This document shows, piece by piece, positions 6,159 to 12,054 of a DNA stretch of 64,000 nt. The notes under the pieces were generated by a model, which worked only from the letters and a program-made list of their open reading frames with translations, was not told where the DNA came from and ran no database searches. The position numbers and the translations under genes are program-made. Each line of letters begins with the position of its first letter. Position 1 is the first letter of the stretch. Location of the stretch: the NCBI RefSeq assembly GCF_000025885.1, contig NC_014011.1, positions 1,240,001 through 1,304,000 on the forward strand, read 5' to 3'. Source of the stretch: Aminobacterium colombiense DSM 12261 (GTDB taxonomy: Bacteria > Synergistota > Synergistia > Synergistales > Aminobacteriaceae).

Positions 6159-6183
6159 GAGGGCTTGCGCCCTCCTATTTTTT
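6157..6183 (+). terminator. Terminator of arcA
   Basis: AGGAGGGC, loop TTGC, GCCCTCCT, then ATTTTTTATTTTTT, beginning at the arcA stop codon. Confidence 0.85.
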
Positions 6184-7471
6184 ATTTTTTCAGTTTAGGC
6201 AAAGTGTTGGCACCATGGGGCATGAGCCATGTTTTCAGATTGGTTCCCCGTTTTTGGTAGACCATATCGAGGGCTTCATCAAGAGTCTTTACAACGGTAA
6301 TGCCCGTTCCCTCAAATTTAGAAGGAGGCATTTCAGTCACCATATAGAAATCCCAGTTTTCAGCCACATATCCGATTGTATAGCCTACATATTTTGCAAT
6401 GGTAAATTCACGGCGGACTTCCTTTTCCCGTTCCACTGTGTTAGGAAATTCTTGAAGCATGAACTGAACTTCATCATTGCCGTAGCCTTCATTGCACGCG
6501 CTCAACACTATCATGGATCCGCCATGGGGAGCCGCTTCCATAGCGTTAAAGATGGTTTTTGATGTTTGATAAAAGTTAATATCTTTAGGGTAGCCCCCAG
6601 CCGTTGCAACAACAAGGTCAGCCAACTCTGGGATAGTAACTCCATCTTTTTTATCAACTATCCTGGCCCCTTCGTAAAATGCTTCTTGCCAGTCTCCCGC
6701 TACAGCGAAGGCTATTTTGCCATCGTTTCCAGGGATAGCGTTGAGCATAAAGGTCGGGTGCACCATAGCTGTAGCTTCCATCATATCCAGGTGCATGAGG
6801 TTGTTCTCAAAATTCCCCGATCTGCTGTTCATATTCCGGCCATTTCCAGGAACTGGGTCAAGCGCCAGAGCGTGATTAGCCATTATGGTCTCGTAGGAAG
6901 AAATGCCAGGGAGAATACCTTTGCGGCCTCCGCCCCACCCAGCCATAAAATGGTAGACTATGGCGCCAGTCACAACAATATGGTCGCACTCCAGGGCCTT
7001 TTTGTTCAAATGTACGGCTGTCCCATAGGATGTTGTCCCAACATGAACCATGTCTTCATGAGCCAGACAACGGTGGTCGGTTACAGAAAATCTTTTCGAT
7101 AATTCCGGCCCCAGCAACAAGGCATGTTCCTCTGCCGTCTGCTCTCTGTGGGTTCCCGTAGAGCTGAGAAAAAGTATATCTTCGTCCCGCACTCCTGCCC
7201 TATTAAGTTCTTCTACTATAAATGGTAAATATACCCACATCCTCTGCCAGGCCCTGGTTACATCAGATACTACAATACAAACTGTTTCTCCCGGTTTTAC
7301 GAGCTCACCCAATCTGGGTGAACCTATAGGATTCTCAAGAGCGTGGCGTGTCACTTCTTCTTCAGTACCGATAGATTCAAGGGGTTCGCTATCGATAACA
7401 CCGAGAAGGTTCTTCCGGGGAATCGAAAAAGCTACATCTCCTTTTCCATATTTTATGGTGCTCGAATACAT
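6182..7471 (-). CDS. larA: LarA-family nickel-pincer-dependent 2-hydroxy-acid racemase
   Basis: 429-residue DUF2088/LarA protein. Counted from the ATG at 7471 (AGGAG spaced correctly), the catalytic and nickel-pincer residues fall on the Lactiplantibacillus LarA numbers: His108 (GTHRE), His174 (YHFMAG), Lys184 (GGRKGILPG, which carries the pincer) and His200. LarA interconverts D- and L-lactate; relatives act on malate and other 2-hydroxy acids. It is the second gene after an LctP-family permease (12-base gap), which supports a lactate-like substrate. The leader upstream of the pair points to branched-chain amino-acid control, so a branched-chain 2-hydroxy acid is an alternative. The pincer-synthesis genes larB, larC and larE are not in this window. 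Confidence 0.88.
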   Translation of the reverse strand: MYSSTIKYGKGDVAFSIPRKNLLGVIDSEPLESIGTEEEVTRHALENPIGSPRLGELVKPGETVCIVVSDVTRAWQRMWVYLPFIVEELNRAGVRDEDILFLSSTGTHREQTAEEHALLLGPELSKRFSVTDHRCLAHEDMVHVGTTSYGTAVHLNKKALECDHIVVTGAIVYHFMAGWGGGRKGILPGISSYETIMANHALALDPVPGNGRNMNSRSGNFENNLMHLDMMEATAMVHPTFMLNAIPGNDGKIAFAVAGDWQEAFYEGARIVDKKDGVTIPELADLVVATAGGYPKDINFYQTSKTIFNAMEAAPHGGSMIVLSACNEGYGNDEVQFMLQEFPNTVEREKEVRREFTIAKYVGYTIGYVAENWDFYMVTEMPPSKFEGTGITVVKTLDEALDMVYQKRGTNLKTWLMPHGANTLPKLKK

Positions 7472-7483
7472 CAATACTCCTCC

Positions 7484-8989
7484 TCATGCAGGAAAAATAA
7501 CATATGTGTAGAACATGGCTAAGGATCCGAAGAAGAGAAAGAAACAGAAGGAAGGAATAAGGGTTTTTCGCATCACTTCCCCTTCACGACCCAAAATGGC
7601 TACACAAGCACACACTGCTACCACGTTGTTTGGACATATCATGTTGCCAATAGCTCCCCCCGTGTTCTGCGCTGCAACCACAGGAAGAACATTGATGGAA
7701 AGATTCTTAACCGCTTCTACGTGTAATGGATTAAACATCAGATTGGACCCGAGGTTCGTTCCTGTAACAAAGCTTCCAATCTGACCGATGAGCACTGCCA
7801 CTGCGGGATAGAAGAAACGGGCAATGGTTGCAAAGGTGACAGCCAGAGTGCTTATCTGCCCAGAAAGTTTCATACAATTCACCATGGCAAGAAGCAACCC
7901 CATAGCAACAAGTGCCGGGATAACCCGTTTGAAAGCTTTTACAGCGGATGATACAAAAAATTGGCTATACCCTAATATAAATGAAGCAACAAAGGCACTT
8001 GCTAAAATAACTGTACCTACCCAGACAGTGTAGCCGCCGCCAAAAGAAACAAGAGTTTTCAAGGGGAATGAAAGACGGACAACGACAAGTAACGCACTCA
8101 AGATGAGATAGGGCAACAATGAACGAATAAAGCTGAGTTGGGAACTCCTTTCTTCAGAGGTTTCTTCTGATAGGGATTCATTCTGAGAGTTAAATCTATA
8201 CTCTTCCGGCATTGCCGCGTCTTTTCTGAACCAGAGATATGCTCCAAACAAGAAGGTCCCAGTCATTCCTCCGATCAAACTGGTCAGTTCTGTAACGGAA
8301 ATCAGAAAGTTGCTCATGGTGAAGTTAATGCTTCCCATCATGAGGCCCATGACAACAATATCCTTCCAAATGCCCTTGAAGGCCTTTTTACCGAAGACAA
8401 ATCCGATAATAAGAACAGGAAGCAACAAGTAGCCCAGGGCCATAAAGCGACCGGTCATGGCAGAAACAGGAACAAAGTCAAGACCGGCAGCACCTGAGCC
8501 AACCACTGTTGTAACACCTGCCCCACCCCAGCATACTGGGCACGAGTTGCCAATAAGGCAAGCTGCGGCTGCAATAACGGGATCCATTCCGAGACCTACA
8601 AGGAAGGGGGCTGCCAGAGCTGCCGGTGCACCGGCACCTGCAGCGCCTTCAAGAAATGTTCCAAAGGGAATGGCTAAAAATAATACCATGAGCCTTTTAT
8701 CCCGAGTGACGTGAGAAAGCCCTTGCTTAATAGAATCCATAGCTTTCGAATCCACCATTATGATCAGGAGAGTAAAGGCCGCAAATATAAGCCATACGAT
8801 TCTAATTCCATCGAGAAAACCATTCCAGCTAGTAAGCAAAAGTGCTTCTACCGGGGATTTAAAAACCAGAAACCCAAGAAAAAGAGCGACTATCCAGCTA
8901 ACAGGAGCAACGACTTTCGAAGAGTAGTTAAGACCTGCCATTCCAACAATAATAATTGCAATAGGCAGCAATGCGAGTAAAAAATTCAT
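7484..8989 (-). CDS. LctP-family (lactate permease) transporter
   Basis: 501-residue integral membrane protein with about 13 hydrophobic segments, of the lactate/glycolate permease family. Conserved segments include FGTFLEGAAGAGAPAALAAP and GNSCPVCWGG in the first half and QIGSFVTGTNLGSNL in the second. The start at 8989 is chosen because GGAGG lies eight bases upstream and the protein then begins with a transmembrane helix; a reading frame extends upstream through the attenuator terminator but is not expected to be translated. It is co-transcribed with larA. The substrate could be lactate or another 2-hydroxy or 2-oxo monocarboxylate. Expression is probably governed by the Ile/Leu/Val leader at 9074-9293. 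Confidence 0.9.
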   Translation of the reverse strand: MNFLLALLPIAIIIVGMAGLNYSSKVVAPVSWIVALFLGFLVFKSPVEALLLTSWNGFLDGIRIVWLIFAAFTLLIIMVDSKAMDSIKQGLSHVTRDKRLMVLFLAIPFGTFLEGAAGAGAPAALAAPFLVGLGMDPVIAAAACLIGNSCPVCWGGAGVTTVVGSGAAGLDFVPVSAMTGRFMALGYLLLPVLIIGFVFGKKAFKGIWKDIVVMGLMMGSINFTMSNFLISVTELTSLIGGMTGTFLFGAYLWFRKDAAMPEEYRFNSQNESLSEETSEERSSQLSFIRSLLPYLILSALLVVVRLSFPLKTLVSFGGGYTVWVGTVILASAFVASFILGYSQFFVSSAVKAFKRVIPALVAMGLLLAMVNCMKLSGQISTLAVTFATIARFFYPAVAVLIGQIGSFVTGTNLGSNLMFNPLHVEAVKNLSINVLPVVAAQNTGGAIGNMICPNNVVAVCACVAILGREGEVMRKTLIPSFCFFLFFGSLAMFYTYVIFPA

Positions 8990-9073
8990 AGAATACTTCC
9001 TCCAATTCTCTTTTGAAATAGTGTAATCGTAGCTGCGGAGTACTCCATATATCTTCCCGGGATATTTGGGTAT

Positions 9074-9108
9074 AAAAAAAGAGGCCGGGACCTTAAGGTC
9101 CCGACCTC
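9074..9108 (-). terminator. Attenuator terminator ahead of the lctP-larA operon
   Basis: Minus strand GAGGTCGGGACC, loop TTAA, GGTCCCGGCCTC, then seven T. The 12-bp stem holds one G-U pair. It lies 84 bases before the permease start and 16 bases after the leader-peptide stop, so transcription of the operon must pass it. Its 5' arm (9097-9108) can instead pair with 9141-9152, inside the last leader codons: GGTCCT with GGGACC and CCTC with GAGG. Confidence 0.75.
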
Positions 9109-9123
9109 TCAACAGCCCATGCG

Positions 9124-9213
9124 TCACAGAACTGTCGCCCGAGGATAGGACCGACATGTAATAATGAGCACGAGTATAAGAATAAGAACTATTAATATCG
9201 TTGCTTCTCTCAC
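9124..9213 (-). CDS. Branched-chain-amino-acid leader peptide (29 residues)
   Basis: A GTG-initiated ORF nine bases after AAGGAGG on the minus strand. Residues 6-18 are ILIVLILILVLII, thirteen consecutive branched-chain residues (six Ile, five Leu, two Val), followed by a polar tail TCRSYPRATVL and TGA. The tail codons contain the strand (9141-9152) that can pair with the terminator 5' arm. A ribosome stalled for charged Ile, Leu or Val tRNA would leave that strand free to form an antiterminator; a ribosome reaching the stop would cover it. This matches the ilv-type attenuation design. The alternative is a tiny membrane peptide with one helix. Confidence 0.65.
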   Translation of the reverse strand: MREATILIVLILILVLIITCRSYPRATVL

Positions 9214-9336: not shown

Positions 9337-10428
9337 TTATCGATCCAGACAGGCAAAGAGGTCTGAAGCTTTTTCAGGCGTAGCGATCCTGACATAATTC
9401 TTGCCCAGATTTGGGTAATCTTCACCAGACCTTACGTCGATTCCCTTTGAAGCAAAAACTTCTCCCAAATGAACATCTCGATCTGAAACAGAAACGAGAG
9501 ATATGGGGCAGCTGTTATATGTAGTTGCCACTCTATATCCTCTTTCTTTGAGTCCGGAAACGAGTACTTCTTTCTGTTCCCCTATCAATTTACGCACTGT
9601 TTCGAGAAGAGTCCCGCCTCGCAGGGCTTCCCGTGCTAAAAGGGCGCTTACTGAGGGCATTGGGAAGGGGAGGTCGCCTTTATCGTAGAATTTTCCAAGA
9701 TTTCCGCTAAACACCCCATAGCCCACACGAGTTCCAGCAAAGTGAAATCCTTTTGTCAATGTTCGAGTCACAATTACGTTCTCATATCTCGGCACAAGCT
9801 GCATGGCCGACGCTTCTTTCGGAGCATAATCACAATAGGCCTCATCCACTATGACAATGACTCCAAGTTTATGGGCCCTGGCTACAAGTGCTTCTATCTG
9901 GTCAAGAGGGATAAGCTGCCCTGTGGGATTATTAGGGTTATCTACATAGAGCAGGGTATGCCCTTCATTCAACGCGCCAAGCAATGGGTCCACATGAAAA
10001 CTGAAATTGTCTTCAGGGTTCATGGCAATGCCTTCGAAGCGAGCCCCGGTGACCCGCACTTCAGTAATATATTCTACAAACTGAGGAATATAGCCCAATA
10101 CTGAAGAACGATCATCAAGAAACACCTTGTTGATCCTTTCTAATACCTGCATGGAACCATAACCAACTTTTACCTGATCTTCTCTTATGTCTGCAAAGTC
10201 TTTCCAGTAATGACATATTTCTTCCAAAAGGGTTTTGTAAGAAGTATCCCCCGTTTTCCACATATTTGAAACCCAGTCAAAATTGCGAATGAATTCTTCG
10301 ACCCCCGGAACGTGAGGCAATGTCGACTCCAGGCCATTGCAATTAAGGACTACAGGATAGTGAGCTTCGTGAATGTAACTCCCCCGCTCAAAATCTTTGA
10401 GGTGGGGTTTTACTTTAGGGTTCCACAT
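9337..10428 (-). CDS. Class I/II PLP aminotransferase, HisC/aromatic type
   Basis: 363-residue fold-type-I aminotransferase. It shows the PLP-binding NPNNPTG (residues 164-170), VDEAYCDY with the Asp that contacts the pyridine nitrogen, Lys226 in TRTLTKGF as the Schiff-base lysine, and a C-terminal YVRIATP arginine for the substrate carboxylate. The family includes histidinol-phosphate and aromatic aminotransferases. The start at 10428 has AGGAGG upstream and overlaps the transporter gene by 14 bases, so the two are translationally coupled. No histidine genes are nearby, and the operon leader contains aromatic codons, so an aromatic amino-acid aminotransferase is the favoured role (inference). 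Confidence 0.85.
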   Translation of the reverse strand: MWNPKVKPHLKDFERGSYIHEAHYPVVLNCNGLESTLPHVPGVEEFIRNFDWVSNMWKTGDTSYKTLLEEICHYWKDFADIREDQVKVGYGSMQVLERINKVFLDDRSSVLGYIPQFVEYITEVRVTGARFEGIAMNPEDNFSFHVDPLLGALNEGHTLLYVDNPNNPTGQLIPLDQIEALVARAHKLGVIVIVDEAYCDYAPKEASAMQLVPRYENVIVTRTLTKGFHFAGTRVGYGVFSGNLGKFYDKGDLPFPMPSVSALLAREALRGGTLLETVRKLIGEQKEVLVSGLKERGYRVATTYNSCPISLVSVSDRDVHLGEVFASKGIDVRSGEDYPNLGKNYVRIATPEKASDLFACLDR

Positions 10429-11620
10429 GCACTTTCGCCTCCTCAAATTTATCAGGAACTGCCGGCATCTCTTTGCCACGCAGCCTCATAAGCCCTACAG
10501 TAGCCAGAGGAATAACCATCACCGCAAGAAAATACCACGCCATGAAAGAATAACCGCGAGCTATGAGAGCGACAAGACCGGCCTTGGCACAGATGAAGCA
10601 AACCACTAAAACGGCAAGCCCTACAACACCTCTCATCTTCGGAGACATCTCTCCTCCCTTTTCCTGGTAAACCGAATTGATCCGCTCATTGAGTCCGTGT
10701 ACAAAACCCGTAATTGTTTCTATACTTGTTCCAAAAAGCATCAACACATAGGCAGAAAGAAGAACTCCCCCTCCAAGGTGGCCTTTAAGAATGCCAAAGA
10801 TAGGAACCGACTCCTCCAGAACTGCCGGAAAAACAGGAGCCATGGCAAGGTATTCGATAAAGGCAGGAATCATCATAAGGATTGAAGCCACTATGCCGTT
10901 GATGACAGCATCCCGTCTTGTTTTTATTATATCTTGTAACGCATACAGCACCAGAAGAAATGAGACCATATTGTAAAGGGTGTATTTTATGCCCCCCATA
11001 AGCCAATTTGAACTTGTCGCGACACCATGGTCTCGAATAAAACTGCCAAAAACCCCATCCATTCCAAAGTGTCGAACTGTAGCTACAAGGAAAATAAACA
11101 TTACGGCATACAGGAAGAATGACCAGTATGAAAGAATGGTTGAAATTACTTTTCCTCCGGCAAACAGGAGAATGGAAGTACCTACAAGAAGGACAGTTAC
11201 GCCAACCCAGTAGGAAATGCCAAACCATTGCTGAAGAATGGTTCCAGCCGCAGAGGATAAAATGCCGCCCACAAGAACCACCAGGAAGATATATCCCGCT
11301 TCAAAAACAAGCCAGGTTGAGCCAGGAAGTAGGCTCTTAAAGAAGCTGCGGTAATTGTACAGACGAAATTTGCGAGCATAATCAAAGGTAAGGATGCCTA
11401 CAAGAGCAAAACAAACAGTAGAAACTACCATGCCGTATAAACCCTCGGCAAGTCCGTTCATCATGAAGAATTCAACAAGCTCCCTGCCTGTTGCGTATCC
11501 GCCGCCAATAAGCACAGACTGACATAAAAACCCAATCATCAGCCATCGGCTAAACCATTTGACCTGCGTAATATCCAGTAATTTTGAGATGATAGAACCC
11601 TTTGGGGCATCCTTTTTCAT
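10415..11620 (-). CDS. YkvI-like membrane protein, probable amino-acid transporter
   Basis: 401-residue protein with about 11 transmembrane segments, of the COG3949 (YkvI) family, distantly related to APC-type amino-acid transporters. The first helix carries the signature IGGGYATGRELVEFF, a broken helix typical of sodium-coupled LeuT-fold carriers. The ATG at 11620 is chosen (GAGGA 11 bases upstream); an upstream extension would run through the attenuator terminator. The gene overlaps the aminotransferase gene, which implies that the carrier and enzyme share a substrate. The leader at 11719-11912 suggests an aromatic amino acid. Confidence 0.82.
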   Translation of the reverse strand: MKKDAPKGSIISKLLDITQVKWFSRWLMIGFLCQSVLIGGGYATGRELVEFFMMNGLAEGLYGMVVSTVCFALVGILTFDYARKFRLYNYRSFFKSLLPGSTWLVFEAGYIFLVVLVGGILSSAAGTILQQWFGISYWVGVTVLLVGTSILLFAGGKVISTILSYWSFFLYAVMFIFLVATVRHFGMDGVFGSFIRDHGVATSSNWLMGGIKYTLYNMVSFLLVLYALQDIIKTRRDAVINGIVASILMMIPAFIEYLAMAPVFPAVLEESVPIFGILKGHLGGGVLLSAYVLMLFGTSIETITGFVHGLNERINSVYQEKGGEMSPKMRGVVGLAVLVVCFICAKAGLVALIARGYSFMAWYFLAVMVIPLATVGLMRLRGKEMPAVPDKFEEAKVHVEP

Positions 11621-11718
11621 CTTTTTCACCGTCCTCTTAAGAAAATAATTAAAACTCTGTTTCTTGAAATGGGGGCTCCATATCTCTGCTCCTTTCCACC
11701 CCCGAGATATAAAAATAT

Positions 11719-11763
11719 AAAAAAAGGGCGGGGCCCCTCTCATAGAAAAAAGGGGCCCCGCCC
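11719..11763 (-). terminator. Attenuator terminator ahead of the transporter-aminotransferase operon
   Basis: Minus strand GGGCGGGGCCCC, 14-base loop, GGGGCCCCGCCC, then seven T: a 12-bp all-GC stem about 100 bases upstream of the first gene. Its 5' arm (11752-11763) can instead pair with 11796-11807 (GGGTCCC with GGGGCCC), within the last leader codons. A further hairpin at 11782-11812 can sequester that strand. Confidence 0.75.
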
Positions 11764-11779
11764 TAAAAGACCAACGCAA

Positions 11780-11875
11780 TTAAGCGTCGATCCCAGGTGA
11801 GGGACCCACGCTAAACCAATAAAGGAAAAAGCGGTTTATCGATAATGTTTCTTGAGTTTTCTCTATATTCTTCAT
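11780..11875 (-). CDS. Aromatic-amino-acid leader peptide (31 residues)
   Basis: ORF of 31 codons with the run FFLYWF at codons 16-21 (TTT TTC CTT TAT TGG TTT). Seven codons later comes the strand that can disrupt the terminator stem, the same arrangement as in the branched-chain leader 2.6 kb away. An in-frame ATG at 11893 would add MIWFLT. No good ribosome site is visible before either ATG. The best promoter (11884-11912) would start the RNA at about the ATG at 11875, implying a leaderless message. The peptide is therefore less certain than its partner. Confidence 0.5.
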   Translation of the reverse strand: MKNIEKTQETLSINRFFLYWFSVGPSPGIDA

Positions 11876-11883
11876 GGTTAGGA

Positions 11884-11912
11884 ACCATATCATTTTTCCA
11901 TGGGGGCGTCAA
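11884..11912 (-). promoter_or_regulatory. Promoter of the aromatic leader
   Basis: Minus strand TTGACG, 17-base spacer, TATGGT, located just after the terminator of the tRNA-Ser gene. The predicted start is near 11877. Confidence 0.5.
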
Positions 11913-11961: not shown

Positions 11962-12054
11962 TGGCGGAGAGGGTGGGATTTGAACCCACGAGACGGGTAT
12001 GAGCCGCCTAATCGATTTCGAGTCGACCGCCTTCGACCACTCGGCCACCCCTCC
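11962..12054 (-). tRNA. tRNA-Ser (anticodon CGA)
   Basis: 93 nt including encoded CCA. GGAGGGG pairs with CCTCTCC (one G-U). The anticodon stem GTCGA/TCGAT encloses loop CTCGAAA, giving anticodon CGA. The long variable arm is serine type and the T loop holds GTTCAAATC. Confidence 0.94.

Follow-up and report, generated by a model that had tools for sequence, protein, structure and literature searches.

A predicted aromatic-amino-acid attenuator in Aminobacterium colombiense and its putative relatives across Synergistales

In the parts of the open-access literature covered by our search, accounts of leader-peptide attenuation concern Proteobacteria, Actinobacteria and a portion of the Firmicutes, and that same search returned no description of an attenuator from Synergistota. 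The classical trp, phe, his, thr and ilv attenuators of Proteobacteria and Actinobacteria combine a leader ORF, a run of regulatory codons that matches the operon, an intrinsic terminator, a protector hairpin and a mutually exclusive antiterminator. The same parts are seen in the element described here, where the match between codons and operon is a prediction; it differs from the classical systems in belonging to Synergistota, in having a nested antiterminator whose outer stem (region 1 with region 4) closes around an inner hairpin that holds the stop codon, and in using one sequence-recognisable chassis across operons for different amino acids. The rnTrpL transcript of Sinorhizobium meliloti begins at the leader AUG (PMC7298713); there this start is stated, whereas for Aminobacterium it is predicted from promoter spacing, and the S. 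meliloti trpL leader attenuates the trp operon, whereas the Aminobacterium leader carries mixed Phe/Tyr/Trp codons. The Lactococcus leu/phe leader (RF01743) is likewise a Phe-involving leader RNA of amino-acid genes; with 15.6 bits, where the gathering score is 70, our leader was rejected as a member. Histidine leader peptides of Firmicutes, as presented in two studies (PMC9413887, PMC2965389), are a further case of attenuation outside Proteobacteria that was found by leader comparison, and they differ from the Synergistales leaders in phylum, amino acid and RNA. The mechanism is of an established kind; to the extent of our checks, novelty lies in the shared chassis, in the nested antiterminator and in the phylum.

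The window, a 64-kb stretch of the 1,980,592-bp genome of Aminobacterium colombiense, contains the element wholly on its minus strand, in the order promoter, 31-codon ORF, hairpin A, hairpin B, terminator and YkvI-like transporter gene (Table 1). The initial annotation had reported a 12-bp GC-only terminator between a promoter and this gene, preceded by a 31-codon ORF with five aromatic residues in six codons, and both parts of this description were borne out. The leader peptide ends in …RFFLYWFSVGPSPGIDA, directly before the stop codon. When we counted ORFs of 10-70 amino acids with five aromatic codons in six throughout the window, the leader ORF was the only one on the minus strand and two were present on the plus strand; shuffled versions of the leader region yielded such an ORF in 13 of 2,000 cases. 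A tRNA gene upstream has its own terminator (11952-11931), which separates it from the leader transcript. No Shine-Dalgarno sequence precedes the leader ATG, which lies 8 nt from the −10 element, while other leaders in the same genome (those of leuA, metN and the phenylacetate-CoA ligase gene) do have one. Since the distance from −10 to ATG is identical in three Aminobacterium species, none of which has a Shine-Dalgarno sequence, a leaderless transcript is the natural reading, and we predict that the leader mRNA is leaderless. The absent ribosome site had been noted before as a weak point, with leaderless translation offered as a way out; the comparison between species and with other leaders strengthens this idea.

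Table 1. Features of the leader locus and of other predicted attenuators in the A. colombiense genome (window positions, unless a contig is named)
Feature	Coordinates	Strand	Evidence or remark
−35 element TTGACG	11907..11912	-	promoter scan; TTGACG kept in both sister species
−10 element TATGGT	11884..11889	-	17-nt spacer to −35; TAATCT in sister species
Leader ORF MKNIEKTQETLSINRFFLYWFSVGPSPGIDA plus stop	11780..11875	-	ATG 11875, TAA 11780; 31 codons; predicted leaderless
Sensor codons TTT TTC CTT TAT TGG TTT (F F L Y W F)	11813..11830	-	5/6 aromatic
Protector hairpin A (1:2), AGCGUgGGUCCC/GGGAUCgACGCU	11783..11812	-	−19.6 kcal/mol alone; kept in sister species
Region 1, antiterminator 5' arm GGGUCCCUCACCUG	11794..11807	-	pairing and folding analysis
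Inner hairpin B (2:3), GAUCgACGC-UUAAUU-GCGUuGGUC	11769..11792	-	nested in antiterminator; stop UAA in loop
Region 4, terminator 5' arm AGGGCGGGGCCCC, doubles as antiterminator 3' arm	11752..11764	-	
Intrinsic terminator	11718..11764	-	stem 11764-11725, 17 pairs, plus T tract; −38.5 kcal/mol
tRNA-Ser(CGA)	11962..12054	-	upstream of leader
YkvI-like transporter, first regulated gene (predicted)	10415..11620	-	homologue search
HisC-like class I aminotransferase	9337..10428	-	PF00155 1.4e-35; TIGR01141 1.2e-48, below cut-off
LctP-family permease	7484..9157	-	TIGR00795, PF02652
Nickel-pincer 2-hydroxyacid racemase, nearest LarAH10	6182..7474	-	NF052525 490.6 bits, cut-off 540
Leu-run attenuator before leuA (L213)	G000:C1:91739-91866	-	A. 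colombiense genome
TTTTTMTT-run attenuator before homoserine dehydrogenase (L214)	G000:C1:525116-525223	-	A. colombiense genome
MMMCMC-run attenuator before MetN/MetI (L215)	G000:C1:1709944-1710057	+	A. colombiense genome

The RNA downstream of the sensor codons can adopt mutually exclusive structures. A scan of one kilobase gave 10 terminator-like sites, compared with 1.2 in total in shuffles; the terminator, with its 12-bp GC-only core GGGCGGGGCCCC/GGGGCCCCGCCC, outscored the other nine. The leader region as a whole folds with a z of −4.8. The pairing of later leader codons with the terminator arm, proposed at the outset, beats shuffles (z −3.3, p 0.004, the duplex tested including hairpin B), and the third hairpin that was thought to sequester the antiterminator strand corresponds to hairpin A. 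What the initial annotation did not contain is the strand and hairpin B, which is nested in the antiterminator and carries the stop codon in its loop. We then folded the leader with the ribosome masked at different positions. Without a ribosome, hairpin A forms before region 4 is made, and the full leader folds into the terminator plus hairpin A. A ribosome stalled on the aromatic run leaves RNA that, up to and including the 5' arm of the terminator, adopts the antiterminator fold (−34.9 to −24.2 kcal/mol, depending on the codon), and with a ribosome at the stop codon the terminator alone is left. In Aminobacterium, hairpin A is predicted to compete with the antiterminator and to be masked by the stalled ribosome. 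These three folding states give expression at low charging of Phe/Tyr/Trp tRNAs as the predicted sense of the switch, in agreement with the earlier proposal. At equilibrium the terminator outcompetes the antiterminator even when the ribosome is stalled, so timing matters, and the antiterminator must form before the terminator 3' arm, as in other attenuators.

Close relatives without aromatic codons at the corresponding site would speak against such a reading; instead, the two other Aminobacterium genomes carry the leader in front of the transporter orthologue, with FFYYWFSVGPSPGVDA and FFYFYFSVGPSPGIDA, each followed by a stop. The aromatic run, protector, hairpin B, antiterminator and terminator are kept in all three genomes. 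Substitutions in the run stay among Phe, Tyr and Trp, apart from Leu to Tyr, and the reading frame is intact in both sister species, despite a 30-nt in-frame insertion in one of them. The ends of hairpin B pair as GAUC/GGUC, GGUC/GAUC and GAUC/GAUC in the three species. A search across Synergistales for AGCGTGGGTCCCTC with one mismatch allowed gave, outside the three Aminobacterium leaders, no leader in the contexts inspected, which indicates that the architecture is conserved and not that 14-mer.

Given these observations, the element is very probably a classical ribosome-mediated transcription attenuator that senses the charging of Phe-, Tyr- and Trp-tRNA. RNA polymerase would start at about 11875, so that the mRNA would be leaderless and would open with the initiation codon of the leader peptide. 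When the three tRNAs are charged, the ribosome would clear FFLYWF and reach the stop codon, where it would block both hairpin B and the antiterminator, because the stop lies in the loop of B; after its release hairpin A could form, and the terminator would end transcription. When aromatic tRNAs are uncharged, the ribosome would stall on FFLYWF and cover the foot of hairpin A, so that region 2 pairs with region 3 in hairpin B and region 1 with region 4 around it. The terminator would then be blocked and the transporter and aminotransferase genes transcribed, and the operon would supply aromatic amino acids, either by import or by transamination of aromatic oxo acids.

We found a homologue of the transporter in 34 of 180 Synergistales genomes. 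YkvI homologues of about 40% identity in several Synergistales families are preceded by the same leader layout in different sequences, and for many of the homologues examined, again from several families, the upstream short ORF has an aromatic cluster, then G-x-P and a stop, and a terminator follows; measured from where the run starts, its T tract begins 105-121 nt downstream. Region 1 consists of the G-x-P codons, and its pairing with the 5' arm of the terminator persists though both arms vary between lineages. This duplex is stronger than in shuffles, with a combined p of about 1e-10 over 18 loci that are not phylogenetically independent. When the segment that runs from region 1 through the 5' arm of the terminator is folded singly, the nested antiterminator (outer stem 1:4, inner hairpin 2:3) forms in 18/18 cases, and in nearly all YkvI leaders the stop codon is located in or near the inner hairpin. 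The outer stem formed in 96/96 native folds versus 87% of chimeras that joined 5' and 3' halves of different members, which by itself is only modest evidence, since the chimeras fold too, GGG/CCC runs being shared. The antiterminator was missed by an RNAalifold consensus computed from the raw MAFFT alignment, because registers shift between families, and we therefore relied on individual folds and on an alignment fitted to a covariance model.

The leader is not universal among YkvI homologues. In other phyla, aromatic leaders before these genes are absent bar a few short unrelated ORFs, and at several homologues within Synergistota a recognisable leader is missing. Some homologues or paralogues carry Ile/Leu runs instead, so that aromatic specificity is not a property of the YkvI family. 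In one genome (L071, G171:C7), two YkvI paralogues about 7 kb apart have the runs FYGYFFYF (aromatic) and NIIILL (Ile/Leu), and a transporter-like gene between them has the run SIIILL; this arrangement lends itself to asking, within a single genome, if substrate follows codon run. Three leaders of family f5 (L024, L025 and L028) have the same layout with weak or no aromatics, as in FIYAGLHRH…SGAPS and LCLVPPDVSGPS, both ending at a stop, which suggests drift of the sensed amino acid.

A covariance model built solely from the 18 YkvI leaders hits numerous further sites in Synergistales, and a search of 100 stretches with it yielded 104 places. Over 130 Mb of sequence from 40 genomes not named Synergistota produced just two weak hits (E 0.34 and 0.42). 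Both sides have changed at 15/15 of the modelled antiterminator pairs, the covariation score was reached by 0/500 shuffles, and versions of the alignment that were slid all scored lower. This alignment was fitted to the structure and its score leans towards the structure accordingly; the 18 per-sequence folds are free of such bias. The codon runs agree with the genes behind them. Poly-Ile runs precede the gamma subunit of 2-oxoacid:ferredoxin oxidoreductase (PorC/VorC) in 15/15 cases, and Ile/Leu/Val runs precede the small subunit of acetolactate synthase, also in 15/15; the gene that usually follows the latter looks like ketol-acid reductoisomerase. For phenylacetate-CoA ligase (PaaK), the run is Phe/Tyr in 19/20 cases as scored by script, the remaining one being VFSF. 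One gene with a Phe run in front encodes a family-3 solute-binding protein, which may be a cyclohexadienyl dehydratase although its family matches are to solute-binding proteins, and we also observed Met runs before MetQ/MetN and O-acetylhomoserine sulfhydrylase and a Cys/Met run before a sulfonate-type permease.

Within the A. colombiense genome, three more attenuators are predicted (Table 1, last rows), before genes that we take from their translations to be leuA, homoserine dehydrogenase and MetN/MetI. They are weak model matches (E 0.06-0.15), kept only because their runs match their genes; a fourth candidate (L216, E 0.5) had no matching run or gene and was dropped. The phenylacetate-CoA ligase homologue (G000:C1:556091-557158, minus strand) is preceded by the leader MFLDVIASSNCFFEYYYASEGPHWRASA and a stop (L281), with the run FFEYYY and a Shine-Dalgarno sequence; the covariance-model search of the genome did not list it. 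An aromatic leader is thereby a feature of this ligase gene in the genus as well. Some loci show further arrangements. In L238 (G024), a SAM riboswitch (RF00162, 70.8 bits) lies directly upstream of a Met-run attenuator before metQ/metN (149-252 and 405-500), a tandem of ligand sensing and tRNA sensing. An Ile/Leu/Val-run attenuator (E 7e-6) at L208:534-641 (G000:C1:81633-81740) and L209 has an FAD-dependent oxidoreductase gene 371 nt beyond it and no obvious gene between, and Ile/Val-run attenuators at L196, L197 and L246 lie 350-400 nt upstream of a gene for an 818-872 aa protein.

The transporter behind the aromatic leader has no Pfam or NCBIfam match, and we presume it to be YkvI-like on the strength of the initial annotation and general knowledge. 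The aminotransferase start overlaps the transporter end by 14 nt, and an aminotransferase gene neighbours the transporter in most homologous loci. Judging from the concordance of codon runs and genes elsewhere in the family, the carrier and the aminotransferase would handle aromatic amino acids. The 179-nt gap before the LctP permease contains one weak promoter-like site and no minus-strand terminator, and permease and racemase are possibly a separate unit. One sister genome has kept both, the other the racemase alone. LarAH10 is a racemase of 3-phenyllactate and other hydrophobic 2-hydroxyacids (PMC11770544), and the predicted functions of permease and LarAH10-like racemase fit aromatic 2-hydroxyacids. 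Chorismate synthase is absent from the A. colombiense genome and present in 14/14 control genomes, so that aromatic amino acids are probably not made de novo and their import or salvage makes sense. The alpha subunit of indolepyruvate:ferredoxin oxidoreductase scores above its cut-off in this genome and the phenylacetate-CoA ligase homologue below; the gene content is consistent with import plus salvage from arylacetates or aryl-oxo acids by the HisC-like aminotransferase.

Three other explanations have to be weighed against tRNA sensing. Aminobacterium ferments amino acids, and the leader peptides share a conserved tail (G-[SP]-P) behind the run, both of which would suit a TnaC-like nascent-peptide arrest in which a leader peptide with a G-x-P tail stalls the ribosome on a free aromatic amino acid, so that plenty induces a catabolic operon. 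However, the identity of the run varies with the operon (Ile, Val/Leu, Thr, Met or aromatic) while the tail stays constant, as expected for tRNA sensing, and since the tail codons are the antiterminator arm, the conservation of the tail is explained at the RNA level. The same switch also precedes biosynthetic genes (acetolactate synthase, leuA and homoserine dehydrogenase), and we consider such an arrest very unlikely. Another way to obtain the aromatic ORF is chance, with the terminator belonging to an independent small RNA or being constitutive and the operon having its own promoter; a 9/12 promoter-like match (11743-11714) with a −10-like TATATT beside the terminator could serve as one. Set against this are the conservation of aromatic run, stop position and pairing across genera, the concordance between runs and genes, and the low frequency of such an ORF among leader shuffles given above, which leave this explanation a chance slightly slimmer again.

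T-boxes commonly control amino-acid genes in Firmicutes, and a terminator/antiterminator pair, present here, would also be expected of a T-box or another riboswitch that binds tRNA or a ligand without translation. Yet at gathering score, Rfam found nothing in the leader and 20 related loci but tRNAs and one separate SAM riboswitch, and no T-box model is among the matches of the leader up to E 5. The best permissive match, anti-hemB (22.8 of 49.5 bits, over the terminator), is not credible. What is conserved is instead a short coding sequence, complete with its amino-acid run and stop codon. We regard a riboswitch as the least probable of the three explanations.

Common descent of the cassette is likely, though convergence on GC-rich region 1 sequences may account for the family resemblance instead. 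On balance, we favour the view that Synergistales possess one homologous attenuator cassette, which would have been copied in front of many amino-acid operons and retuned by swapping the codon run alone, and which would do the work done elsewhere by T-boxes or by repressors specific for one amino acid; the sequence would then directly reveal what an operon does and what its transporter carries, and the aromatic copy of Aminobacterium would be read from a leaderless mRNA. Attenuation with one recognisable RNA chassis appears to be in use throughout an order of anaerobes that ferment amino acids, where it would govern genes for aromatic and branched-chain amino acids, for Thr and Met, and possibly for Cys. 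If this reading is true, the codon run would predict the substrate of uncharacterised transporters such as those of the YkvI family, and aromatic and Ile/Leu copies could be told apart within one genome. Phenylacetate-CoA ligase and 2-oxoacid:ferredoxin oxidoreductase, which are usually read as catabolic in such organisms, would be tied to starvation, with aromatic and branched-chain amino acids being made from acids.
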